From: Owenia fusiformis
Taxonomy: Eukaryota; Annelida; Polychaeta; Sabellida; Oweniidae
Assembly: GCA_903813345.2 (NCBI GenBank)
Contig: CAIIXF020000009.1
Span: 30,354,740 to 30,418,739 of the forward strand
Direction: 5' to 3'
Length of the DNA: 64,000 bases
How positions within the stretch are numbered: the stretch's first letter is position 1; every line of letters begins with the position of its first letter. A program made the position numbers and the translations under genes. Shown here piece after piece: positions 1 through 15,344 of this stretch. The notes beneath the pieces were generated by a model. The model was not told where the DNA came from. It saw nothing but the letters and a program-made list of their open reading frames with translations, and ran no database searches.

Positions 1-3000
1 GCAGTTATGTCTTCAGGCATTGGCACTGAATTTATAGGTAAAGATGGAAGCAGTTATGTCTTCAGGCATTGGCACTGAATTCATAGGTAAGATGGTAGTA
101 GTTATGTCTTCAGGCAATGGCACTGAATTCATAGGTAAAGATGGTGGCAGTTATGTCTTCAGGCATTGGCACTGAATTCATAAGTAGAGATGGTAGCAGT
201 TATGTCTTCAGGCATTGGCACTGAATTCATAAGTAGAGATGGTAGCAGTTATGTCTTCAGGCATTGGCACTGAATTCATAAGTAGAGATAGTAGCAGTTA
301 TGTCTTCAGGCATTGGCACTGAATTCATAAGTAAAGATGACAGCAGTTATGTCTTCAGGCATTGGCACTGAATTCACAAGTGGAGATGGTAGCAGTTATG
401 TCTTCAGGCATTGGCACTGAATTCATAGGTAAAGATGGTAGTAGTTATGTCTTCAGGCATTGGCACTGAATTCAAATTGAAAGATGGTGTCAGTTATGTC
501 TTCAGGCATTGGCACTGAATTCATAGGTAAACATGGTAGTAGTTATGTCTTCAGGCATTGGCACTGAATTCATAGGTAAACATGGTAGTAGTTATGTCTT
601 TGGGGATTGGCACTGAATTCAAATTGAAAGATGGTGTCAGTTATGTCTTCAGGCATTGGCACTGAATTCATAAGTAAAGATGGTGGCATTTATGTCTTCA
701 GGCATTGGCACTGAATTCATAGGTAAAGATGGTAGTAGTTATGTCTTCAGGCAATGGCACTGAATTCATAGGTAAAGATGGTGGCAGTTATGTCTTCAGG
801 CATTGGCACTGAATTCACAAGTAGAGACGGTAGCAGTTATGTCATCAGGCATTGGCACTGAATTCATAGGTAAAGATGGTGGCAGTTATGTCTTCAGGCA
901 TTGGCACTGAATTCATAGGTAAGATGGTAGTAGTTATGTCTTCAGGCAATGGCACTGAATTCATAGGTAAAGATGGTGACAGTTATGTCTTCAGGCATTG
1001 GCACTGAATTCATAAGTAGAGATGGTAGCAGTTATGTCTTCAGGCATTGGCACTGAATTCACAAGTAGAGACGGAAGCGGTTATGTCTTCAGGCATTGGC
1101 ACTGATTCCATAGGTAAACATGGTGGCAGTTATGTCTTCAGGCATTGGCACTGAGTTCATAAGTAAAGATGACAGCAGTTATGTCTTCAGGCATTGGCAC
1201 TGAATTCACAATTAAGTGGAGACGGTAGCAGTCATGTCTTCAGGCATTGGCACTGAATTCATAGGTAAAGATGGTAGTAGTTATGTCTTCAGGCATTGGC
1301 ACTGAATTCAAATTGAAAGATGGTGTCAGTTATGTCAGGCATTGGCACTGAATTCATAGGTAAAGATGGTGGCAGTTATGTCTTCAGGCATTGGCACTGA
1401 ATTCATAAGTAGAGATGGTAGCAGTTATGTCTTCAGGCATTGGCACTGAATTCATAAGTAGAGATGGAAGCAGTTATGTCTTCAGGCATTGGCACTGAAT
1501 TTAAAGGTAAAGATGGAAGCAGTTATGTCTTCGGGCATTGGCACTGAATTTATAGGTAGAGATGGAAGCAGTTATGTCTTCAGGCATTGGCACTGAATTT
1601 ATAGGTAAAGATGGAAGCAGTTATGTCTTCAGGCATTGGCACTGAATTCATAGGTAAAGATGGTAGTAGTTATGTCTTCAGGCATTGGCACTGAATTCAA
1701 ATTGAAAGATGGTGTCAGTTATGTCAGGCATTGGCACTGAATTCATAGGTAAAGATGGTGGCAGTTATGTCTTCAGGCATTGGCACTGAATTCATAAGTA
1801 GAGATGGTAGCAGTTATGTCTTCAGGCATTGGCACTGAATTCATAAGTAGAGATGGAAGCAGTTATGTCTTCAGGCATTGGCACTGAATTTAAAGGTAAA
1901 GATGGAAGCAGTTATGTCTTCGGGCATTGGCACTGAATTTATAGGTAGAGATGGAAGCAGTTATGTCTTCAGGCATTGGCACTGAATTTATAGGTAAAGA
2001 TGGAAGCAGTTATGTCTTCAGGCATTGGCACTGAATTCATAGGTAAGATGGTAGTAGTTATGTCTTCAGGCAATGGCACTGAATTCATAGGTAAAGATGG
2101 TGGCAGTTATGTCTTCAGGCATTGGCACTGAATTCATAAGTAGAGATGGTAGCAGTTATGTCTTCAGGCATTGGCACTGAATTCATAAGTAGAGATGGTA
2201 GCAGTTATGTCTTCAGGCATTGGCACTGAATTCATAAGTAGAGATAGTAGCAGTTATGTCTTCAGGCATTGGCACTGAATTCATAAGTAAAGATGACAGC
2301 AGTTATGTCTTCAGGCATTGGCACTGAATTCACAAGTGGAGATGGTAGCAGTTATGTCTTCAGGCATTGTCACTGAATTCATAGGTAAAGATGGTAGTAG
2401 TTATGTCTTCAGGCATTGGCACTGAATTCAAATTGAAAGATGGTGTCAGTTATGTCTTCAGGCATTGGCACTGAATTCATAGGTAAAGATGGTGGCAGTT
2501 ATGTCTTCAGGCATTGGCACTGAATTCATAAGTAGAGATGGTAGCAGTTATGTCTTCAGGCATTGGCACTGAATTCATAAGTAGAGATGGAAGCAGTTAT
2601 GTATTCAGGCATTGGCACTGAATTTATAGGTAAAGATGGAAGCAGTTATGTCTTCAGGCATTGGCACTGAATTTATAGGTAGAGATGGAAGCAGTTATGT
2701 CTTCAGGCATTGGCACTGAATTTAGAGGTAAAGATGGAAGCAGTTATGTCTTCAGGCATTGGCACTGCAGTTCATAGGTAAGATGGTAGTAGTTATGTCT
2801 TCAGGCAATGGCACTGAATTCATAGGTAAAGATGGTGGCCGTTATGTCTTCAGGCATTGGCACTGAATTCATAAGTAGAGATGGTAGTAGTTATGTCTTC
2901 AGGCATTGGCACTGAATTCATAAGTAGAGATGGTAGCAGTTATGTCTTCGGGCATTGGCACTGAATTCATAGGTAAAGATGGTGGCATTTATGTCTTCAG

Positions 3001-5503
3001 GCATTGGCACTGAATTCATAAGTAGAGATAGTAGCAGTTATGTCTTCAGGCATTGGCACTGAATTCATAAGTAAAGATGACAGCAGTTATGTCTTCAGGC
3101 ATTGGCACTGAATTCACAAGTGGAGATGGTAGCAGTTATGTCTTCAGGCATTGGCACTGAATTCATAGGTAAAGATGGTAGTAGTTATGTCTTCAGGCAT
3201 TGGCACTGAATTCAAATTGAAAGATGGTGTCAGTTATGTCTTCAGGCATTGGCACTGAATTCATAGGTAAACATGGTAGTAGTTATGTCTTCAGGCATTG
3301 GCACTGAATTCATAGGTAAACATGGTAGTAGTTATGTCTTTGGGGATTGGCACTGAATTCAAATTGAAAGATGGTGTCAGTTATGTCTTCAGGCATTGGC
3401 ACTGAATTCATAAGTAAAGATGGTGGCATTTATGTCTTCAGGCATTGGCACTGAATTCATAGGTAAAGATGGTAGTAGTTATGTCTTCAGGCAATGGCAC
3501 TGAATTCATAGGTAAAGATGGTGGCAGTTATGTCTTCAGGCATTGGCACTGAATTCACAAGTAGAGACGGTAGCAGTTATGTCATCAGGCATTGGCACTG
3601 AATTCATAGGTAAAGATGGTGGCAGTTATGTAATCAGGCATTGGCACTGAATTCATAGTATAAGATGGTAGTAGTTATGTCTTCAGGCAATGGCACTGAA
3701 TTCATAGGTAAAGATGGTGACAGTTATGTCTTCAGGCATTGGCACTGAATTCATAAGTAGAGATGGTAGCAGTTATGTCTTCAGGCATTGGCACTGAATT
3801 CACAAGTAGAGACGGAAGCGGTTATGTCTTCAGGCATTGGCACTGATTCCATAGGTAAACATGGTGGCAGTTATGTCTTCAGGCATTGGCACTGAGTTCA
3901 TAAGTAAAGATGACAGCAGTTATGTCTTCAGGCATTGGCACTGAATTCACAATTAAGTGGAGACGGTAGCAGTCATGTCTTCAGGCATTGGCACTGAATT
4001 CATAGGTAAAGATGGTAGTAGTTATGTCTTCAGGCATTGGCACTGAATTCAAATTGAAAGATGGTGTCAGTTATGTCTTCAGGCATTGGCACTGAATTCA
4101 TAGGTAAAGATGGTGGCAGTTATGTCTTCAGGCATTGGCACTGAATTCATAAGTAGAGATGGTAGCAGTTATGTCTTCAGGCATTGGCACTGAATTCATA
4201 AGTAGAGATGGAAGCAGTTATGTCTTCAGGCATTGGCACTGAATTTAAAGGTAAAGATGGAAGCAGTTATGTCTTCGGGCATTGGCATTGAATTTATAGG
4301 TAGAGATGGAAGCAGTTATGTCTTCAGGCATTGGCACTGAATTTATAGGTAAAGATGGAAGCAGTTATGTCTTCAGGCATTGGCACTGAATTCATAGGTA
4401 AGATGGTAGTAGTTATGTCTTCAGGCAATGGCACTGAATTCATAGGTAAAGATGGTGGCAGTTATGTCTTCAGGCATTGGCACTGAATTCATAAGTAGAG
4501 ATGGTAGCAGTTATGTCTTCAGGCATTGGCACTGAATTCATAAGTAGAGATGGTAGCAGTTATGTCTTCAGGCATTGGCACTGAATTCATAAGTAGAGAT
4601 AGTAGCAGTTATGTCTTCAGGCATTGGCACTGAATTCATAAGTAAAGATGACAGCAGTTATGTCTTCAGGCATTGGCACTGAATTCACAAGTGGAGATGG
4701 TAGCAGTTATGTCTTCAGGCATTGGCACTGAATTCATAGGTAAAGATGGTAGTAGTTATGTCTTCAGGCATTGGCACTGAATTCAAATTGAAAGATGGTG
4801 TCAGTTATGTCTTCAGGCATTGGCACTGAATTCATAGGTAAAGATGGTGGCAGTTATGTCTTCAGGCATTGGCACTGAATTCATAAGTAGAGATGGTAGC
4901 AGTTATGTCTTCAGGCACTGGCACTGAATTCATAAGTAGAGATGGAAGCAGTTATGTATTCAGGCATTGGCACTGAATTTATAGGTAAAGATGGAAGCAG
5001 TTATGTCTTCAGGCATTGGCACTGAATTTATAGGTAGAGATGGAAGCAGTTATGTCTTCAGGCATTGGCACTGAATTTATAGGTAAAGATGGAAGCAGTT
5101 ATGTCTTCAGGCATTGGCACTGAATTCATAGGTAAGATGGTAGTAGTTATGTCTTCAGGCAATGGCACTGAATTCATAGGTAAAGATGGTGGCCGTTATG
5201 TCTTCAGGCATTGGCACTGAATTCATAAGTAGAGATGGTAGTAGTTATGTCTTCAGGCATTGGCACTGAATTCATAAGTAGAGATGGTAGCAGTTATGTC
5301 TTCGGGCATTGGCACTGAATTCATAGGTAAAGATGGTGGCATTTATGTCTTCAGGCATTGGCACTGAATTCACAAGTAGAGACGGTAGGGGTTTTGTCCT
5401 TAGGCATTGGCACTGAATTCATAGGTAAAGATGGTGGCAGTTATGTCTTCAGGCATTGGCACTGAACTCATAGGTAAAGCTGGTAGCAGTTATGTCTTCA
5501 GGC
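1..5503. repeat. 49-bp minisatellite array with higher-order blocks
   Basis: About 110 tandem copies of a 49-bp unit with the core words GTCTTCAGGCATTGGCACTG and GAATTCAT. The first base of the window is already inside the array, and the last recognisable unit breaks off at about 5503. Most units hold an EcoRI site (GAATTC). Subtypes differ in the segment after GAATTC: CATAGGTAAAGATGG, CATAAGTAGAGATGG, CACAAGTGGAGATGG and AAATTGAAAGATGG. Subtype order is repeated at larger scale: about 260-1310 matches 3000-4050 (offset about 2740), about 1650-2990 matches 4005-5345 (offset about 2355), and 1 to about 500 matches 1957-2450 (offset 1956). The unit is not a multiple of three and carries stops, so it is not a protein repeat. 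The last units (5390-5503) are the most degenerate, as is usual at an array edge. Confidence 0.97.
1263..2040. repeat. 389-bp tandem duplication inside the minisatellite
   Basis: Two adjacent blocks of 389 bp (about 1263-1651 and 1652-2040) carry the same ordered set of unit subtypes. They share a private 3-bp deletion that turns TATGTCTTCAGG into TATGTCAGG (at about 1331 and 1720) and share the rare word TTAAAGGTAA (at 1501 and 1890). The related block at about 4005-4390 has a single copy without the deletion. The deletion therefore arose first and the 389-bp piece was then duplicated, a recent slippage or unequal-exchange event. Confidence 0.8.
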
Positions 5504-6303
5504 AGCAGCAACTTCATCCATTTTCTTTACAGAATTATAAGTTGTATTTTTTTGTGTTTGTCCAAATTCTAGCTATTTCAATCTTGCATATGCTCTCTAT
5601 TGTAAATGTTTATATAGGGACATGAAATGCCGGAGGGCGCGATTTGCCCAAACCCCGTCTATCCATTGTATATTTGTTTGTATTTATGATATAATATTGA
5701 TTAAAAACATTTACCCAGAATGCTCCAAAACTGATCAGTTCTAAACTTTTGGAGATAGAAACATCCCATTTCAGATGATTCCCTCTTACGGATTGGCTTG
5801 AAACCTGTAGACAAAAATCAGGACTCCCATTCGACTGACCAACTGACCGACTGACCACCCGTCCGCCCGCCAATCCACCTGTCAAACTGATCACAATATA
5901 GCACCCTAGGATGCGATAATAAGGTAAGTTATTAAGCATAAGTATTTCATTCAATCTATCTAAGAATTATAGATACAAAATAACATACTTTTAACCATGA
6001 TTGACCATGGTCATCTATGGCATTTATGGTCAGAGATAATCGCCAACAATATGATTCAGACCAAAAACCACCGACAATAAACTTTAAATATTCCACGGTA
6101 GATAATTGTCAACGTAGACTCTGATTATGTGCGTATATGACGTCAACTTGATCACGCCCATTACGATGAAATAATATGATTTTGCCATAATACCTGACTT
6201 ACTATCAATCGTATTATCAAATGACAATATCAGGTCTTGATTGAAAGCAATCCCTTTATTATTATCCCATCGAACCAAGTTCGGAAGGATATAGGGAACG
6301 GTT
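5504..6303. other. Non-genic flank right of the minisatellite
   Basis: No gene is recognised. 5835-5890 holds a degenerate run of CTGACC/CCGTCC/CCGCC words like the short simple repeats scattered through many marine invertebrate genomes. The open frames crossing this stretch (5431-5625 plus, 5610-5954 minus, 6084-6398 minus) have no recognisable domain. They are biased by the simple repeat or start inside the minisatellite. Confidence 0.6.
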
Positions 6304-10503: not shown

Positions 10504-13500
10504 TTAAAGGTCATTTTCTATTTTCTCTTCAAGGATATCAGATATCATGGGCGATGCATCATTAATGTCCAATAGCTCAACAACAAAACCGTCATCCTCA
10601 AATGTGTTGCTGATGAAAATTTTGAGAGATTCACTGAAGTTCTTTGTAGTACTTTTCCTATCTTCGTCATCCAATCCTGGCAGCTCTGTCAACGTTTGGA
10701 GGATGGACGCATATTCCGCCAACACATGATACACCTGAAAAATGTTATAGTGATTTCAGTGTTTGCTTTTGTTAAAAGAACGTAATACAGTTATACAGGG
10801 TGGGCCAAAAAAACGCCACTTTTTTTTCAAAATGCTATAACTTTTTTAATTTTTGATACAAAATCATAATTTGCATACCAAATGAAACTTGAGGTTGTTA
10901 TCTAGCCATGGATCATGAATTATACACTTTTACTTGAATAAAATATGTCACCAGCGTCTCACTTAAATATGCGGTGTGCCATGAGAAATAAGCATAATTT
11001 GCAAAATGTTCCTGAACTGATACGGCCTGATGACCGCCAAGCTAATAGCCCTAATGCAAACCCAAGTGAGAAAAGGGTATGGGAAGGTCTCCAGGAGATG
11101 GTATGAAGGCACCCAATCTAAAAAATTGCTCAACTAAAGCTGGCAACTAAGACACGTTGAAAAAAATATACAGCTAACATTTTATTGATACTGCTCTATC
11201 AGCAAGGCGACTAAAACTAAAATCTATCATCAAATAGGGTGGCGGACCAATTGAACTCATCTTTTAGATCAAATATAATCCCAGTTGAAGGACTTGTTAC
11301 ATTATATTATTACTAAGAACCCTTGGCACTATATAACTGCAAAATTTGGGGTATGTAGGTTGGGAAATAAAAAAGTTATAGTGTCTTGAAAAAAAGTGGC
11401 GTTTTTTTGGCCCACCCTGTATATAATTTGTTTAACATAAAAAGAAATGATATCAAATTGATACCCTACCTGGTGCCCCTTCTCAAATGACCACGCTGTG
11501 TTTTTGTATGGCCTCGAAGAACCTGCACGATTTGCTTGTAATTCGATGCATCCTGTTTCCTTCATGTTCGGGTCCTTGTCGCTCATTAACTTTGGACAGT
11601 TTCCACATTCAGGTACAAATATATAAAGTTTTTTTGCCATTTTGATATTGTTTTCTGTCAATTTCTTTTCATTCATGTACATTTCAATTTTGTCCTCCAA
11701 TCCTGAAATATATAATCACGACATTCAAAGACAAATAGCCTAAAGGGAATTAGTTTGCATAACAAAATATCAGCATTAAAAGTTTATACCAAAGCTTAAA
11801 ATACATTAATAGGTATGTTTATAATACAAATATATAGGATCCGTTATCCCATGTACCCAAAGATGACCCAAAAGGTTTCATTGGACATAACATAGAAATT
11901 GTTAATTTTGTCAATTATAAACACATCAAAAACGAAATTAGGTCATTGGGATTAAAACTAAGATAATTCAGTGCATTTAAGTTTAAGATTATGCAAATCA
12001 TTCTAAATATCATTTTAGGGGTATGTTAGTCTTCACTCATGACTATCTTAAGTATCTTGACCATTCAATCAATCGATGTATCAAAATATCATTAAAATAT
12101 CATTCAAATGACAACATATTGAAAACATAAATCATAAAATATCCCCTAATGTATCAATGAATCTTAATATGGGTGTTCTCAGCAAAAGTTCCAGAATCGT
12201 CTCAGTTTGTATGCAGCAGTAGATTTAACAAAGGCATTCAATTTAGAGGACACATTAAACACCATTATAAAGGTAGGAAAGAAAGAGCAACATATTGAAA
12301 ACACAAAACCTAGGTATTCAACTCTGATGTGTAAATCACTAAGTATTATGAAGTAAAATGTTTTTTTATGACTGAGGATGAGAACTATCTTACAAGTCTT
12401 AAGGAGTGTCCCTTTAATGGCTAAATAGATATTATATCAGTGTCTCAGCAATATATCTATCATCTTCCGGGGCAGGCATCAAAAACAAATTGACGTAAGA
12501 ACTACCTTACAAGCAGTGTCCCTTTAAATGGGTAAATGGATATTGATTCAGTCCCTCGGCAATACATCATCTTCAGGGGTAGGCATGAAGTTTATTTTCT
12601 ACATGTATTTCATGAGTATTCCCCCAGCAACATTCTTTCTCTCTAAGATCACTTTATGGGTACATTATTACATAGTCGCTTACCAGTTTGATTTGCATAC
12701 CTTGGCAATCCAATATGACACTATTATATATTAGTTGTTCCTGATATTGATATATTATCAATTTTGAATAAATATCATGTATTCAGTCCATTCACAATAA
12801 AAAATACTATATGAAACTGTATGTCATTTTGCTATTATTTTTTTCGTAAGATGAAGGAACATAAGATATATTTAAAAATTAAAATGCATAAAAAGGTTAC
12901 ATTATAACTAATTGTCAGAACACTTTTAACACAAAATACCCTTTTACAAAGAGAAAAAGTAACCTACCTACATGCCGTTGATTTTGTTGAATGACAATCT
13001 TCAGGTATGCAAAGAAGTAATTTGCTGCATACACATGTCCAATATGAAACTTAAAACCTGAAAGTATTGAGTATTGGTCAAATTGAGCTGATTGATAATA
13101 TTGGTTACATAATACACAATTTTAAGAATTTTATCACCAATGTATTAAATGTGCTATCCCTCGATGATGTTTCTCTGAATGTTGGAGGATAGAAGGGGTT
13201 TGGGTGATTTCTTCCCTTATGACCTATTATAGTCCAAGATGTTACTTTTAATGTTTTGGTCTATCTTAATGCCACCCGTTGTTTCATATTTTCACTAATA
13301 GCTTTACCTTGAATGTAATTGTTAATGATATTTGTCCCAGATCCAACCTGGACGTTGTGGCATTGCCTAACGTCAACTGTTGTCTCTTCTAAAACATACA
13401 ATGGCAATTTAAAAAATATATATTTCAAACAAGAACATGATTATTTATAAGTAATTTGTACATGTTTTGGTAATTATATCTCTGGTTTAAACCTGAATAA

Positions 13501-14576
13501 ATATTAACCTTTACATAGTTGAACCCCATGTGACATGGCACCATGTGGGAATTCCTGAACTTCAGACGTGTCACCCCCTCCCTCCTCTTCGATTCCTGCC
13601 CTTTCTTCCAACCCATCATTGTAATCATTGGATGCTGATGTGCTGTCGTCTGTTCTACGTAGGGTTGACACTTCATTGGTGTCAGCCAAAGGGTCAGATG
13701 ATTCACTCGAAGAAGGCTGGCAATGCAAACCCGAAGAAATCACAATTACCTGATGTTTGCAATTGATGATGTGATGATAACTAATTTTAAGTTAATGGTT
13801 CTTTGGTACATGTTAGAACTTCTTTGAAATTCTTTTCATTGCTTCTGTTTGAATTAAATCTTGACATTACATACGAGCAATCAATACAGAGTAATCTGTT
13901 CGTCATTGAATAGATTGTCACTATTTTAAGGCACTAAACAAAGATGCAACAAGGATGCTTGTTCGATAAAATAAGTGCACCCATGTCTTCATAATTTATT
14001 TTGTAGCAGAAAATAACATGTGCAGGTATAGCAATTTTTCAAAATTGTTTTCTTGAACATCTGCCTTACATTTTAACCCCTATGAACAAAAACAATCACT
14101 CGGGGTATCACCCTGAGTCATCTTTCTAATTAGTAATGGCGATTCTGGACATGGAGCAATGATTCAACGCATTTTTCTTATCACATTACCAAGTAGTCAT
14201 GTTATGTCTTCCTTTGATTGTTTCTAACCTGCGTTGCACTTGTGCTGATGCGTAGGTGAGGCATTCCAAGTCTCTTCAGAAGTTCATTGACTGCTACTAT
14301 CCCGAGCAGCGCAGACATTACCTGTGTATGGAGTTCCATTTCACCCTGAAAACAATGTGCAAGATCTTGACAATGGTCTCATGGATTTCGTCCCCTACTT
14401 TTATAGCAAAATTTCCAGAATCATGGGATTCTGAACTTCCCATCTCACCATCCGTGGGATTCCCTAATAAAAATAGGGTAATCCCCTTCGAGGTTTTCTT
14501 TCAGGGTATGAGGTTCCATATCCATCCGCCAAAAGGTATATAGTCCTACCTGTAGTATTGTTCTAAATAACGCCAT
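10504..14576 (-). CDS. STING-like cyclic-dinucleotide receptor with RHIM-like motif (7 exons)
   Basis: Seven minus-strand exons join with GT-AG introns and consistent phases: 14576-14550, 14345-14229, 13749-13509, 13388-13308, 13057-12968, 11702-11470, 10734-10504. They give 1020 bp, 339 residues plus TAA. The start ATG has A at -3 and G at +4. Residues 156-339 match the STING ligand-binding domain: GHVYAANYFFAYLKIV (human Tyr163/Tyr167 equivalents Y169, Y173), LYIFVPECG, then NRAGSSRPYKN (R244, R249, Y251 for human Arg232, Arg238, Tyr240), then AEYASILQTL (E270, Y271, S273, T277 for Glu260, Tyr261, Thr263, Thr267). The protein ends after the last helix, with no TBK1/IRF3 tail. Residues 10-48 hold one weakly hydrophobic helix (VMSALLGIVAVNELLKRLGM), possibly a relic of the last membrane helix and connector; there is no four-helix membrane domain. 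Residues 49-128 are an acidic Ser-rich linker and 129-155 carry the RHIM-like VQVG. In animals STING binds 2'3'-cGAMP or bacterial cyclic dinucleotides in innate immunity; signalling by this form is inferred. Further 5' exons beyond the satellite cannot be excluded. Confidence 0.85.
10796..11419. mobile_element. Mariner-type MITE in the last intron of the STING-like gene
   Basis: The 624-bp element starts CAGGGTGGGCCAAAA and ends with the exact inverted copy. Identity runs about 30 bp, and recognisable similarity continues to about 57 bp (10796-10852 against 11363-11419, including CTATAACTTTTTTA). TA lies on both sides (10794-10795, 11420-11421). It falls within the intron 10735-11469 and does not touch either splice site. 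A short plus-strand frame from about 11030 (MTAKLIALMQTQVRKGYGKV) weakly resembles the N-terminal helix-turn-helix of mariner transposases, but it stops after about 35 codons. The element is non-autonomous. Confidence 0.82.
12381..12590. repeat. Imperfect 117-bp direct repeat in the STING-like intron
   Basis: Two copies begin with AGAACTATCTTACAAG (12381) and AGAACTACCTTACAAG (12498). They share GTGTCCCTTTAA, GGCAATACATCAT-like and CATCTTCNGGGG words. Copies differ by several substitutions and small indels, so the duplication is old. It lies in the 1265-bp intron between the exons ending at 12968 and starting at 11702. No function is evident. Confidence 0.6.
13308..13388 (-). other. RHIM-like exon of the STING-like gene
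   Basis: This 81-bp exon (acceptor TTTTAG before 13388, donor CAAG/GTAAAG after 13308) encodes residues 129-156. It contains CHNVQVGSGTNIINNY, with tetrad V141-Q142-V143-G144 and N148 downstream. RHIM motifs of RIPK1, RIPK3, TRIF and ZBP1 share an I/V-Q-I/V/L-G core followed within a few residues by Asn and a hydrophobic residue and form hetero-amyloids. Here the Asn is one place further from Gly than in the mammalian set. Both exon boundaries are phase 1, so the exon is symmetric and could be skipped or shuffled without breaking frame. The acidic Ser-rich linker before it (exon 13509-13749) resembles the disordered context in which RHIMs normally sit. The assignment is by motif only. Confidence 0.6.
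14346..14463 (-). other. Open frame in intron 1, possible alternative exon
   Basis: On the minus strand an acceptor-like TTTTTATTAG ends at 14464. From 14463 a frame stays open for about 41 codons (NPTDGEMGSSESHDSGNFAI, then KVGDEIHETIVKILHIVF) into the start of exon 2, but one base out of frame with it. One base more in the TTTT run at 14349-14352 would make it continuous with exon 2. Either this is a chance ORF within the 204-bp intron 1, or it is an alternative first region hidden by a single-base error or polymorphism. The intron model (exon 14576-14550 spliced to 14345) keeps frame without any correction and is preferred. Confidence 0.3.
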
Positions 14577-14703: not shown

Positions 14704-15163
14704 GGGTTCACCCAACTAATTGTTATAACATGCGTATTCCCATACAAACGATCTGTCTTCAAGAGAAAACTAAGATTTGTGGACATGTTTTGCTATCATT
14801 GCATCATACCCCAGTATGTCCTCTGTCAGTCAAAAAAGTTTGAATCAAAACTCCCCACGAAAATCAAAAGATCTCACCTGTTGAAGACGCCATCTATAGA
14901 AAATGTCAAAAAATGTCATTCTGATTTTGACAGATGGAGGCAGGTCAAAAAGGTCACATTTTTTAAAGAAAATGCACCTTAATCACATCAAATCATGTCT
15001 CAGAGTTGGTCCACACATACACTTTTTCATTCATGTACTTACCAAAATCCAACCACTGGTGATGCTAATGTAATTACAATAATTGGACTATATTTTTGTT
15101 TTTATAATGCCATCTATTCGTCTTCCCACTCGGCGGAAGGATCTAATGGTTGTGTGTCTCCTA
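14704..15163. repeat. Edge copy of the 463-bp satellite segment
   Basis: The array begins with this segment rather than with a core. It lacks only its first three bases (ATA) relative to internal copies, which start ATAGGGTTCACCC. To its left is unique DNA ending TTTTACTAC. Its right end passes into core 1 exactly as internal copies do (CTCCTA/GTAGTGACCC). The 463-bp segment contains no inverted ends, no recognisable protein domain and no RNA gene that I can identify. Confidence 0.9.
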
Positions 15164-15344
15164 GTAGTGACCCATCCTTTAAGTTACAATTGTAATTTCC
15201 TCCAAAATGTAACCCCAAGTTGTTTTCTAGTAAAATAATACAAACCGCAAGCAGATTCGACTATTTTTTCCAGATATATGAATGATTAAAGTTACCCATC
15301 CCCTTTCTGCAATTAGATGTTTTCCTGGGATATTGACTAAAATT

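Follow-up and report, generated by a model that had tools for sequence, protein, structure and literature searches.

The window, by which we mean the whole 64,000-nucleotide stretch of Owenia fusiformis DNA analysed here, carries on its minus strand (14339-10504) a gene whose six exons, as read from the sequence, form a single open frame of 328 residues with GT-AG junctions and matching phases (Table 1). We call it RHIM-STING, and use C9 for its contig, C12 for the contig of its STING paralogue, C3 for that of a connexin-RHIM gene and C10 for that of two connexin-STING genes. An earlier note on this DNA had described a phase-symmetric 81-bp exon with an acidic Ser-rich exon ahead of it and the first exon of a STING domain directly behind it, and each of these elements was borne out. 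The 81-bp exon (peptide EETTVDVRQCHNVQVGSGTNIINNYIQ) is bounded by the acceptor tgttttag and the donor gtaaag and has phase 1 at both ends, the preceding linker contains 16 Asp/Glu and 13 Ser in residues 38-117, and the exon that follows opens the STING domain. The presence of a RHIM-like exon together with a STING domain is confirmed for the predicted gene. The peptide of exon 1 gave no domain above cut-off in a Pfam search, and exon 2 has a possible alternative in-frame acceptor that would let it start at 13716. A start codon in a putative exon at 14893-14878 was dropped because it throws the following exon out of frame. A search of the genome at the DNA level, using exon 3 and its flanks as query, returned exon 3 itself as the sole match.

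Table 1. Exons of the window gene and the related genes discussed in the text
Feature	Position	Strand	Description
CDS exon 1	14229..14339	-	111 nt; start codon 14339; donor gttaga; phase 0 exit; MELHTQVMSALLGIVAVNELLKRLGMPHLRISTSATQ
CDS exon 2	13509..13749	-	241 nt; acidic Ser-rich linker
CDS exon 3	13308..13388	-	81 nt, phase 1-1; RHIM-like motif NVQVGSGTNIINNY = residues 129-142
CDS exon 4	12968..13057	-	90 nt; STING ligand-binding domain begins
CDS exon 5	11470..11702	-	233 nt; STING ligand-binding domain
CDS exon 6	10504..10734	-	231 nt including stop codon; end of STING ligand-binding domain
connexin-RHIM	L024 9980-6654 (C3)		six exons, one frame, 369 residues
RHIM-like-Death gene	C3:21848001-21857000 (L038; 21.85 Mb)	minus	exon from 4668, open frame from 4103
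connexin-like-STING C10a and C10b	L019 3402-8185 and L020 6860-1698 (C10)		448 and 436 aa, open gene models

Directly upstream of the gene, window positions 14704-64000 hold a satellite array with degenerate CCCTAA-like blocks, in which a 497-bp piece of the 5' side of the STING gene (14704-15200) is found in 14 full exact copies and one more that is clipped by the window end. Positions 1-5504 are made up of a tandem repeat (49-bp unit, 112 copies, 90% matches), and the last intron contains 60-bp inverted repeats (10792-11423) that are 92% alike and resemble the termini of a small DNA transposon.

Residues 146-328 of the predicted protein make up the STING ligand-binding domain, which was matched by Pfam STING_LBD over residues 151-310 with an E-value of 5.1e-18 and 65.5 bits against a cut-off of 27; its best solved relative in the PDB was 8ydn, a 354-residue STING (E 4.9e-15). 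Of the residues that we take to be the cyclic-dinucleotide contacts of human STING (Y167, R232, R238, Y240, E260 and T263), the first five are kept in the alignment to human STING, as read by eye, while T263 is replaced by Ser. In its ligand-binding domain and in most of these contact residues the protein is thus like the STINGs of vertebrates and Drosophila, from which it differs in having neither a transmembrane segment, as judged by hydropathy, nor a C-terminal tail, but instead an N-terminal linker and the RHIM-like motif. No 19-residue window reached the hydropathy threshold of 1.6 (maximum 1.37), and the protein stops where the STING domain stops. From its sequence, the gene product is probably a soluble STING receptor in which an N-terminal arm, probably flexible and ending in one RHIM-like motif, replaces the membrane anchor. 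Having a soluble N-terminal signalling module before an animal STING domain, it resembles the metazoan TIR-STINGs (PDB 6wt6; oyster TIR-STING, as described in passages of PMC10732462), although its module is a RHIM-like motif and not a TIR domain, and its STING domain is only 32-33% identical to those of two TIR-STINGs of the same genome.

A profile search of the genome, counted exon by exon, gave 14 STING-domain matches, and the fifth exon of the window gene used as query recovered seven, including itself. One of the genes, on C12 and thus on another chromosome, was chosen for its STING domain, and a motif was then spotted in it with the pattern [IVL]Q[IVL]G, for which 13 matches over nine loci were listed; the C12 match was alone in lying in the corresponding exon slot. 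There, the exon right before the ligand-binding domain encodes GGDIHGDNVQVGNRNVQIIIQG and exits in phase 1 (assigned by eye), with the motif NVQVGNRNVQIIIQ, containing NVQVGNRN, in the same slot as that of the window gene. The two exons have NVQVG and IQG in common. Two further genes, the connexin-STINGs of C10, have a connexin-like exon, then a linker exon and then the STING domain, and in these the slot of the RHIM-like motif is filled by a phase 1-1 linker exon of 60 or 57 nt without the motif. Their STING domains are 78% identical to each other. Domains of the RHIM-type are 48-57% identical to those of the connexin-type, as are the two RHIM-types to each other, compared with 26-33% identity between any of these and two TIR-STINGs of the genome, and by this measure of sequence identity the RHIM-STINGs and the C10 connexin-STINGs are one STING lineage. 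In a six-sequence tree the two RHIM-STINGs were not grouped, with a support of 73 for the C9 domain together with the connexin-STINGs. At six other loci (L014-L018 and L021, on C7, C5 and C346), TIR-like exons were seen upstream of STING exons, as an apparent set of TIR-STINGs, and both of the two such exons tested by Pfam were TIR.

We then consider how RHIM-like the motif is. RHIMs occur in RIPK1 and RIPK3 and also in TRIF and ZBP1, and Drosophila IMD has a cryptic RHIM. The RHIM core, I/V-Q-I/V/L-G, is present as NVQVG in both STING exons, and the layout V-x-V-x-x-C-x-N-VQVG of the window motif resembles that of RIPK3 (VNIYNCSGVQVGDNN), with a tail one residue longer than in known RHIMs (VQVG-SGTN versus VQVG-xxN). 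The RHIM-profile search that the earlier note had put forward as a check turned out negative with Pfam RHIM, which matched neither the window exon nor the C12 exon. We also used a hand-aligned profile of seven motifs containing no STING, namely those of RIPK1, RIPK3 and five proteins of this genome. Of these five, two exceeded the Pfam cut-off (20 bits) at least once when tested, and the other three stayed below it. With this profile the window exon scored 13.3 bits, a value reached by 13 of 20,000 shuffled versions, and the C12 exon 13.6 bits (6 of 20,000); the count for the window exon is optimistic, because that exon had first been chosen for its VQVG. The seven members themselves, each left out in turn, scored 20.8-34.6 bits, all above both STING exons. 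A profile of RIPK1 and RIPK3 only gave 6.4 bits for the window exon, reached by 279 of 20,000 shuffles, with 636 of 20,000 for the C12 exon.

When the STING-free profile was run over 9,240 six-frame segments (346,337 amino acids from the window and the fetched loci, some overlapping), the best segments after the five genome members of the profile were those of the C12 exon (11.4 bits) and the window exon (11.0 bits), both as parts of longer segments. The next best, in L030, scored 10.4 bits and is unlike a RHIM, and the maximum among 2,077,200 shuffled residues was 9.3. Codons for NVQVG as such are at background in the genome, with 91 + 88 = 179 matches against 80 + 84 = 164 for a control pattern. 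A codon pattern for N-I/V-Q-x-G-xx-N was also tried as a finder of RHIM genes and dropped as too unspecific, with 173 matches against 108 for its control. Against the PDB, a profile built from both STING exons and three further motifs of this genome had RIPK3 as its top three hits (E 0.009-0.013), followed by a tailspike (E 0.11) and, in fifth place, RIPK1 (E 0.66). No RIPK was found when the profile was limited to the two STING exons, which gave only YrdA (E 1.7), or with the window exon by itself, for which K5 lyase, tail spike, L-galactose dehydrogenase and gamma carbonic anhydrase appeared at E 0.25-1.8. With reservations, we conclude from these sequence comparisons that the motif is beyond chance when its context is counted, which bare NVQVG codons are not.

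The foremost alternative takes the exon for a plain flexible linker, in which VQVG is fortuitous or forms a local beta-strand, and has the STING domain signal by itself, for example via a FADD-like adaptor. The absence of a Pfam RHIM match, the PDB searches without RIPK for the single exon and the STING-only profile, the background frequency of the NVQVG codons and the non-RHIM linker exon of the sister connexin-STINGs would all agree with such a linker, but the recurrence of NVQVG and IQG in the same exon slot of the C12 paralogue and the RHIM profile scores of both STING exons speak against it, and we regard it as the less likely reading. The RHIM likeness claimed for the motif stood with regard to its core, its slot in the paralogue and the top rank of RIPK3 for the five-motif profile, and failed in the Pfam, STING-only and single-exon searches. 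Given these mixed results, the window motif is therefore, as judged by sequence, RHIM-like and divergent but not a Pfam RHIM, and its status depends on the paralogue and on the genes that accompany it in the genome. Compared with RIPK1/RIPK3, TRIF, ZBP1 and Drosophila IMD, the receptor is here a STING, and the motif is divergent and lacks a Pfam RHIM match.

That company consists of other RHIM-bearing genes. Pfam RHIM searched against the genome with E up to 10 gave five matches, two of them above cut-off, and in this search, directed at RHIMs, no kinase was recognised alongside any of the five. One of the genes, connexin-RHIM, matched Pfam Connexin at 40.7 bits (cut-off 31.3), with four regions reaching 1.6 in hydropathy, and ends C-terminally in two RHIM motifs, VTVSNCKNVQAGNSNQMNI with 16.5 bits and VTIHDSENVQLGHGNVINIW with 24.4 bits (cut-off 20). 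The ends of connexins lie in the cytosol, and the motifs of connexin-RHIM would therefore face the STING protein. In the RHIM-like-Death gene, the RHIM-like exon stayed below the Pfam cut-off both alone (17.2 bits) and in the join (14.9 bits). A Death domain (E 5.8e-15) lies downstream of it on the same strand, an IMD-like order in which the two parts are linked by position. In passages of a nemertean study, Imd and RHIM-bearing PGRPs are stated not to have been found in molluscs or brachiopods, and in the nemertean itself the imd gene was found while RHIM was absent from its transcriptome (PMC9835746). A RHIM-like exon with CANVQIGDNN (16.6 bits, under cut-off) was also seen on the minus strand of C523, around position 5493 of L037, in an RNF213-like gene whose likeness was found with RNF213 of the PDB (E 4.4e-12). 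On C6 (L026, C6:78001-88000), a gene with the RHIM SQNIQIGDGNVITRD had no other named domain in the parts tested, and no such motif was seen in the related copy that lies beside it; the RHIM of the gene scored 22.9 bits as a 29-residue piece and 18.7 bits, under the cut-off, as a whole open frame.

The connexin-like part is likewise found in several settings. Pfam Connexin scored 51.6 bits for C10a and 48.2 bits for C10b, and the genome had 13 matches above the cut-off of 31.3, i.e. the two STING fusions, the one RHIM protein and ten others. Eight of these ten loci were inspected, of which five had a P-loop frame, one a Death-like stretch and two nothing recognised within about 6 kb. At the five (L029, L030, L032 and L033 on C10, and L035 on C3), a long open frame with a P-loop lies downstream of the connexin-like exon on the same strand and is STAND-like by eye, with the P-loop in the form GPxGSGKTQ (by eye; linked to the connexin-like exon by strand and position alone); one such frame gave AAA_22 in Pfam at 17.1 bits, below its cut-off of 27. 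At the sixth (L034, C12:3491001-3497000, minus strand), the stretch after the connexin-like exon reached 18 bits as Death-like, against a cut-off of 22.6. Each extracellular loop of chordate connexins has three conserved cysteines, whereas the C3 and C10 translations, inspected by eye, have two per loop. Since, in addition, two of the four segments expected in C10a fell short of the hydropathy threshold of 1.6 and just two reached it, we use the wording 'connexin-like'. The likeness to chordate connexins thus consists in Pfam matches above cut-off and, for connexin-RHIM, four hydrophobic regions, and the differences in the loop cysteines, the joining to RHIM or STING and the occurrence in a protostome. 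In the genome sequence a search for COX1 gave no match, and a protostome is indicated by one match to the microRNA bantam, which is not known outside protostomes; the match has 53.2 bits, below its cut-off of 61, and by eye its mature stretch departs from that of bantam in a single base.

All three pairings of the modules, STING-RHIM, connexin-RHIM and connexin-STING, are present in the genome. Two modules fused in one gene are often partners acting together, and the connexin-RHIM and connexin-STING genes are the strongest hint, at the level of sequence, as to the partner of RHIM-STING. They also bear on a second alternative, namely that the motif is a RHIM serving self-assembly of STING alone, as a replacement for membrane-driven clustering and without any RHIM partner. 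A protein that, as judged by hydropathy, lacks a transmembrane segment would benefit from some other means of clustering, but the connexin-RHIM and RHIM-like-Death genes are found in the same genome and the connexin-STING fusions link the same modules, which makes a partnerless motif improbable. Finally, that the gene model is wrong, either because mature transcripts leave out the RHIM-like exon or because the gene is in decay next to the satellite array, could be suspected from the exact copies of its 5' side in that array and from junctions known from sequence alone, but is highly improbable with six exons that are all open, GT-AG junctions with matching phases, the same slot in the C12 paralogue and a DNA search with the exon that returns only the exon itself.

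We thus favour, with a probability of roughly 0.55, a model in which ligand-bound RHIM-STING seeds an amyloid that recruits connexin-RHIM and/or the Death adaptor. It is offered as the best explanation, with genes, domains and motifs taken from the sequence and with expression, ligand binding, clustering, amyloid, channel opening and choice of partner inferred. The Mab-21 family, which includes cGAS-like enzymes, had 32 matches in the genome, and a cGAS-like enzyme would provide the cyclic dinucleotide. Dimers of STING would bind it and pack side by side like other STINGs, whereupon the clustered RHIM-like motifs would nucleate a short amyloid. This amyloid would template the RHIMs of connexin-RHIM, leading to membrane permeability or cell death, and possibly also the RHIM-like motif of the Death adaptor, leading to caspase or NF-kB signalling; the RHIM-like-Death gene may be an alternative or an additional partner. 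In sister genes a connexin-like part is fused directly to STING, a link in cis for which the RHIM pair would be the counterpart in trans, and RHIM-STING together with connexin-RHIM would, by analogy, be a split form of connexin-STING. The earlier note's suggestion of RHIM amyloid signalling is strengthened by the motif of the paralogue and by the candidate RHIM partners, and weakened by the negative Pfam result and by the non-RHIM linker of the sister STINGs.

The proposed logic has counterparts in fungi, where, according to parts of PMC12881547, NLRs have receptor and effector domain in one protein or in separate proteins joined by amyloid motifs, some of them RHIM-like. The pairs HELLP/PNT1 and HET-S/NWD2 each combine a receptor that carries an amyloid motif with an effector that acts on membranes and has one or more matching motifs (PMC12881547), and the anatomy of HET-S/NWD2, with an N-terminal motif in the receptor and a C-terminal one in the membrane effector, is matched by RHIM-STING and connexin-RHIM as regards anatomy only. 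The differences are that STING here takes the place of the NLR and a connexin-like protein, carrying two motifs, that of the HeLo-type effector, and that the genes are not neighbours, RHIM-STING being on C9 and connexin-RHIM on C3. According to part of PMC13144350, STING and IMD of Drosophila each recruit FADD on their own; with FADD recruited by STING without IMD, the RHIM route would come on top. A more specific version, which we put forward tentatively and with the odds somewhat against it, is a two-component protostome immune system in which soluble RHIM-STING, bound to a cyclic dinucleotide, would seed an amyloid that gates or clusters the two-RHIM connexin-like channel, with the connexin-like domain as a shared immune output module that is elsewhere found on STING and, by same-strand position, with STAND-like ATPases and a Death-like domain.

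The earlier note had also considered the architecture to be undescribed, and this agreed with the open-licence literature searched. Term searches of the main text found neither RHIM nor connexin in two surveys of animal and eukaryotic STINGs (PMC9980059 and PMC10732462), in a Death/TRADD-N study that lists a STING fusion (PMC8195603) or in a study of choanoflagellate STING (PMC12424679), and no RHIM in that of a Drosophila STING study (PMC13144350). Among the matches listed from the open-licence literature, no title or abstract had RHIM or connexin joined to STING in one protein. The partners of STING given in the parts consulted of PMC10732462, PMC8195603 and PMC12424679 are transmembrane, TIR, TRADD-N and purine nucleoside phosphorylase modules, with no amyloid motif. 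Within that scope, the window gene as predicted is a STING with a new signalling module, and its occurrence in one genome with a two-motif channel-like protein suggests a sensor-to-channel immune circuit not found in the open-licence literature searched. According to part of a survey, non-chordates are without connexins save for one unconfirmed sea-urchin transcript (PMC8769644), and the 13 Pfam Connexin matches in this protostome genome bear on the view of connexins as chordate-only. If the proposed model is true, immune effectors would include a connexin-like protein, and animal STING can use the receptor-to-effector amyloid logic of fungal NLRs and mammalian necroptosis.
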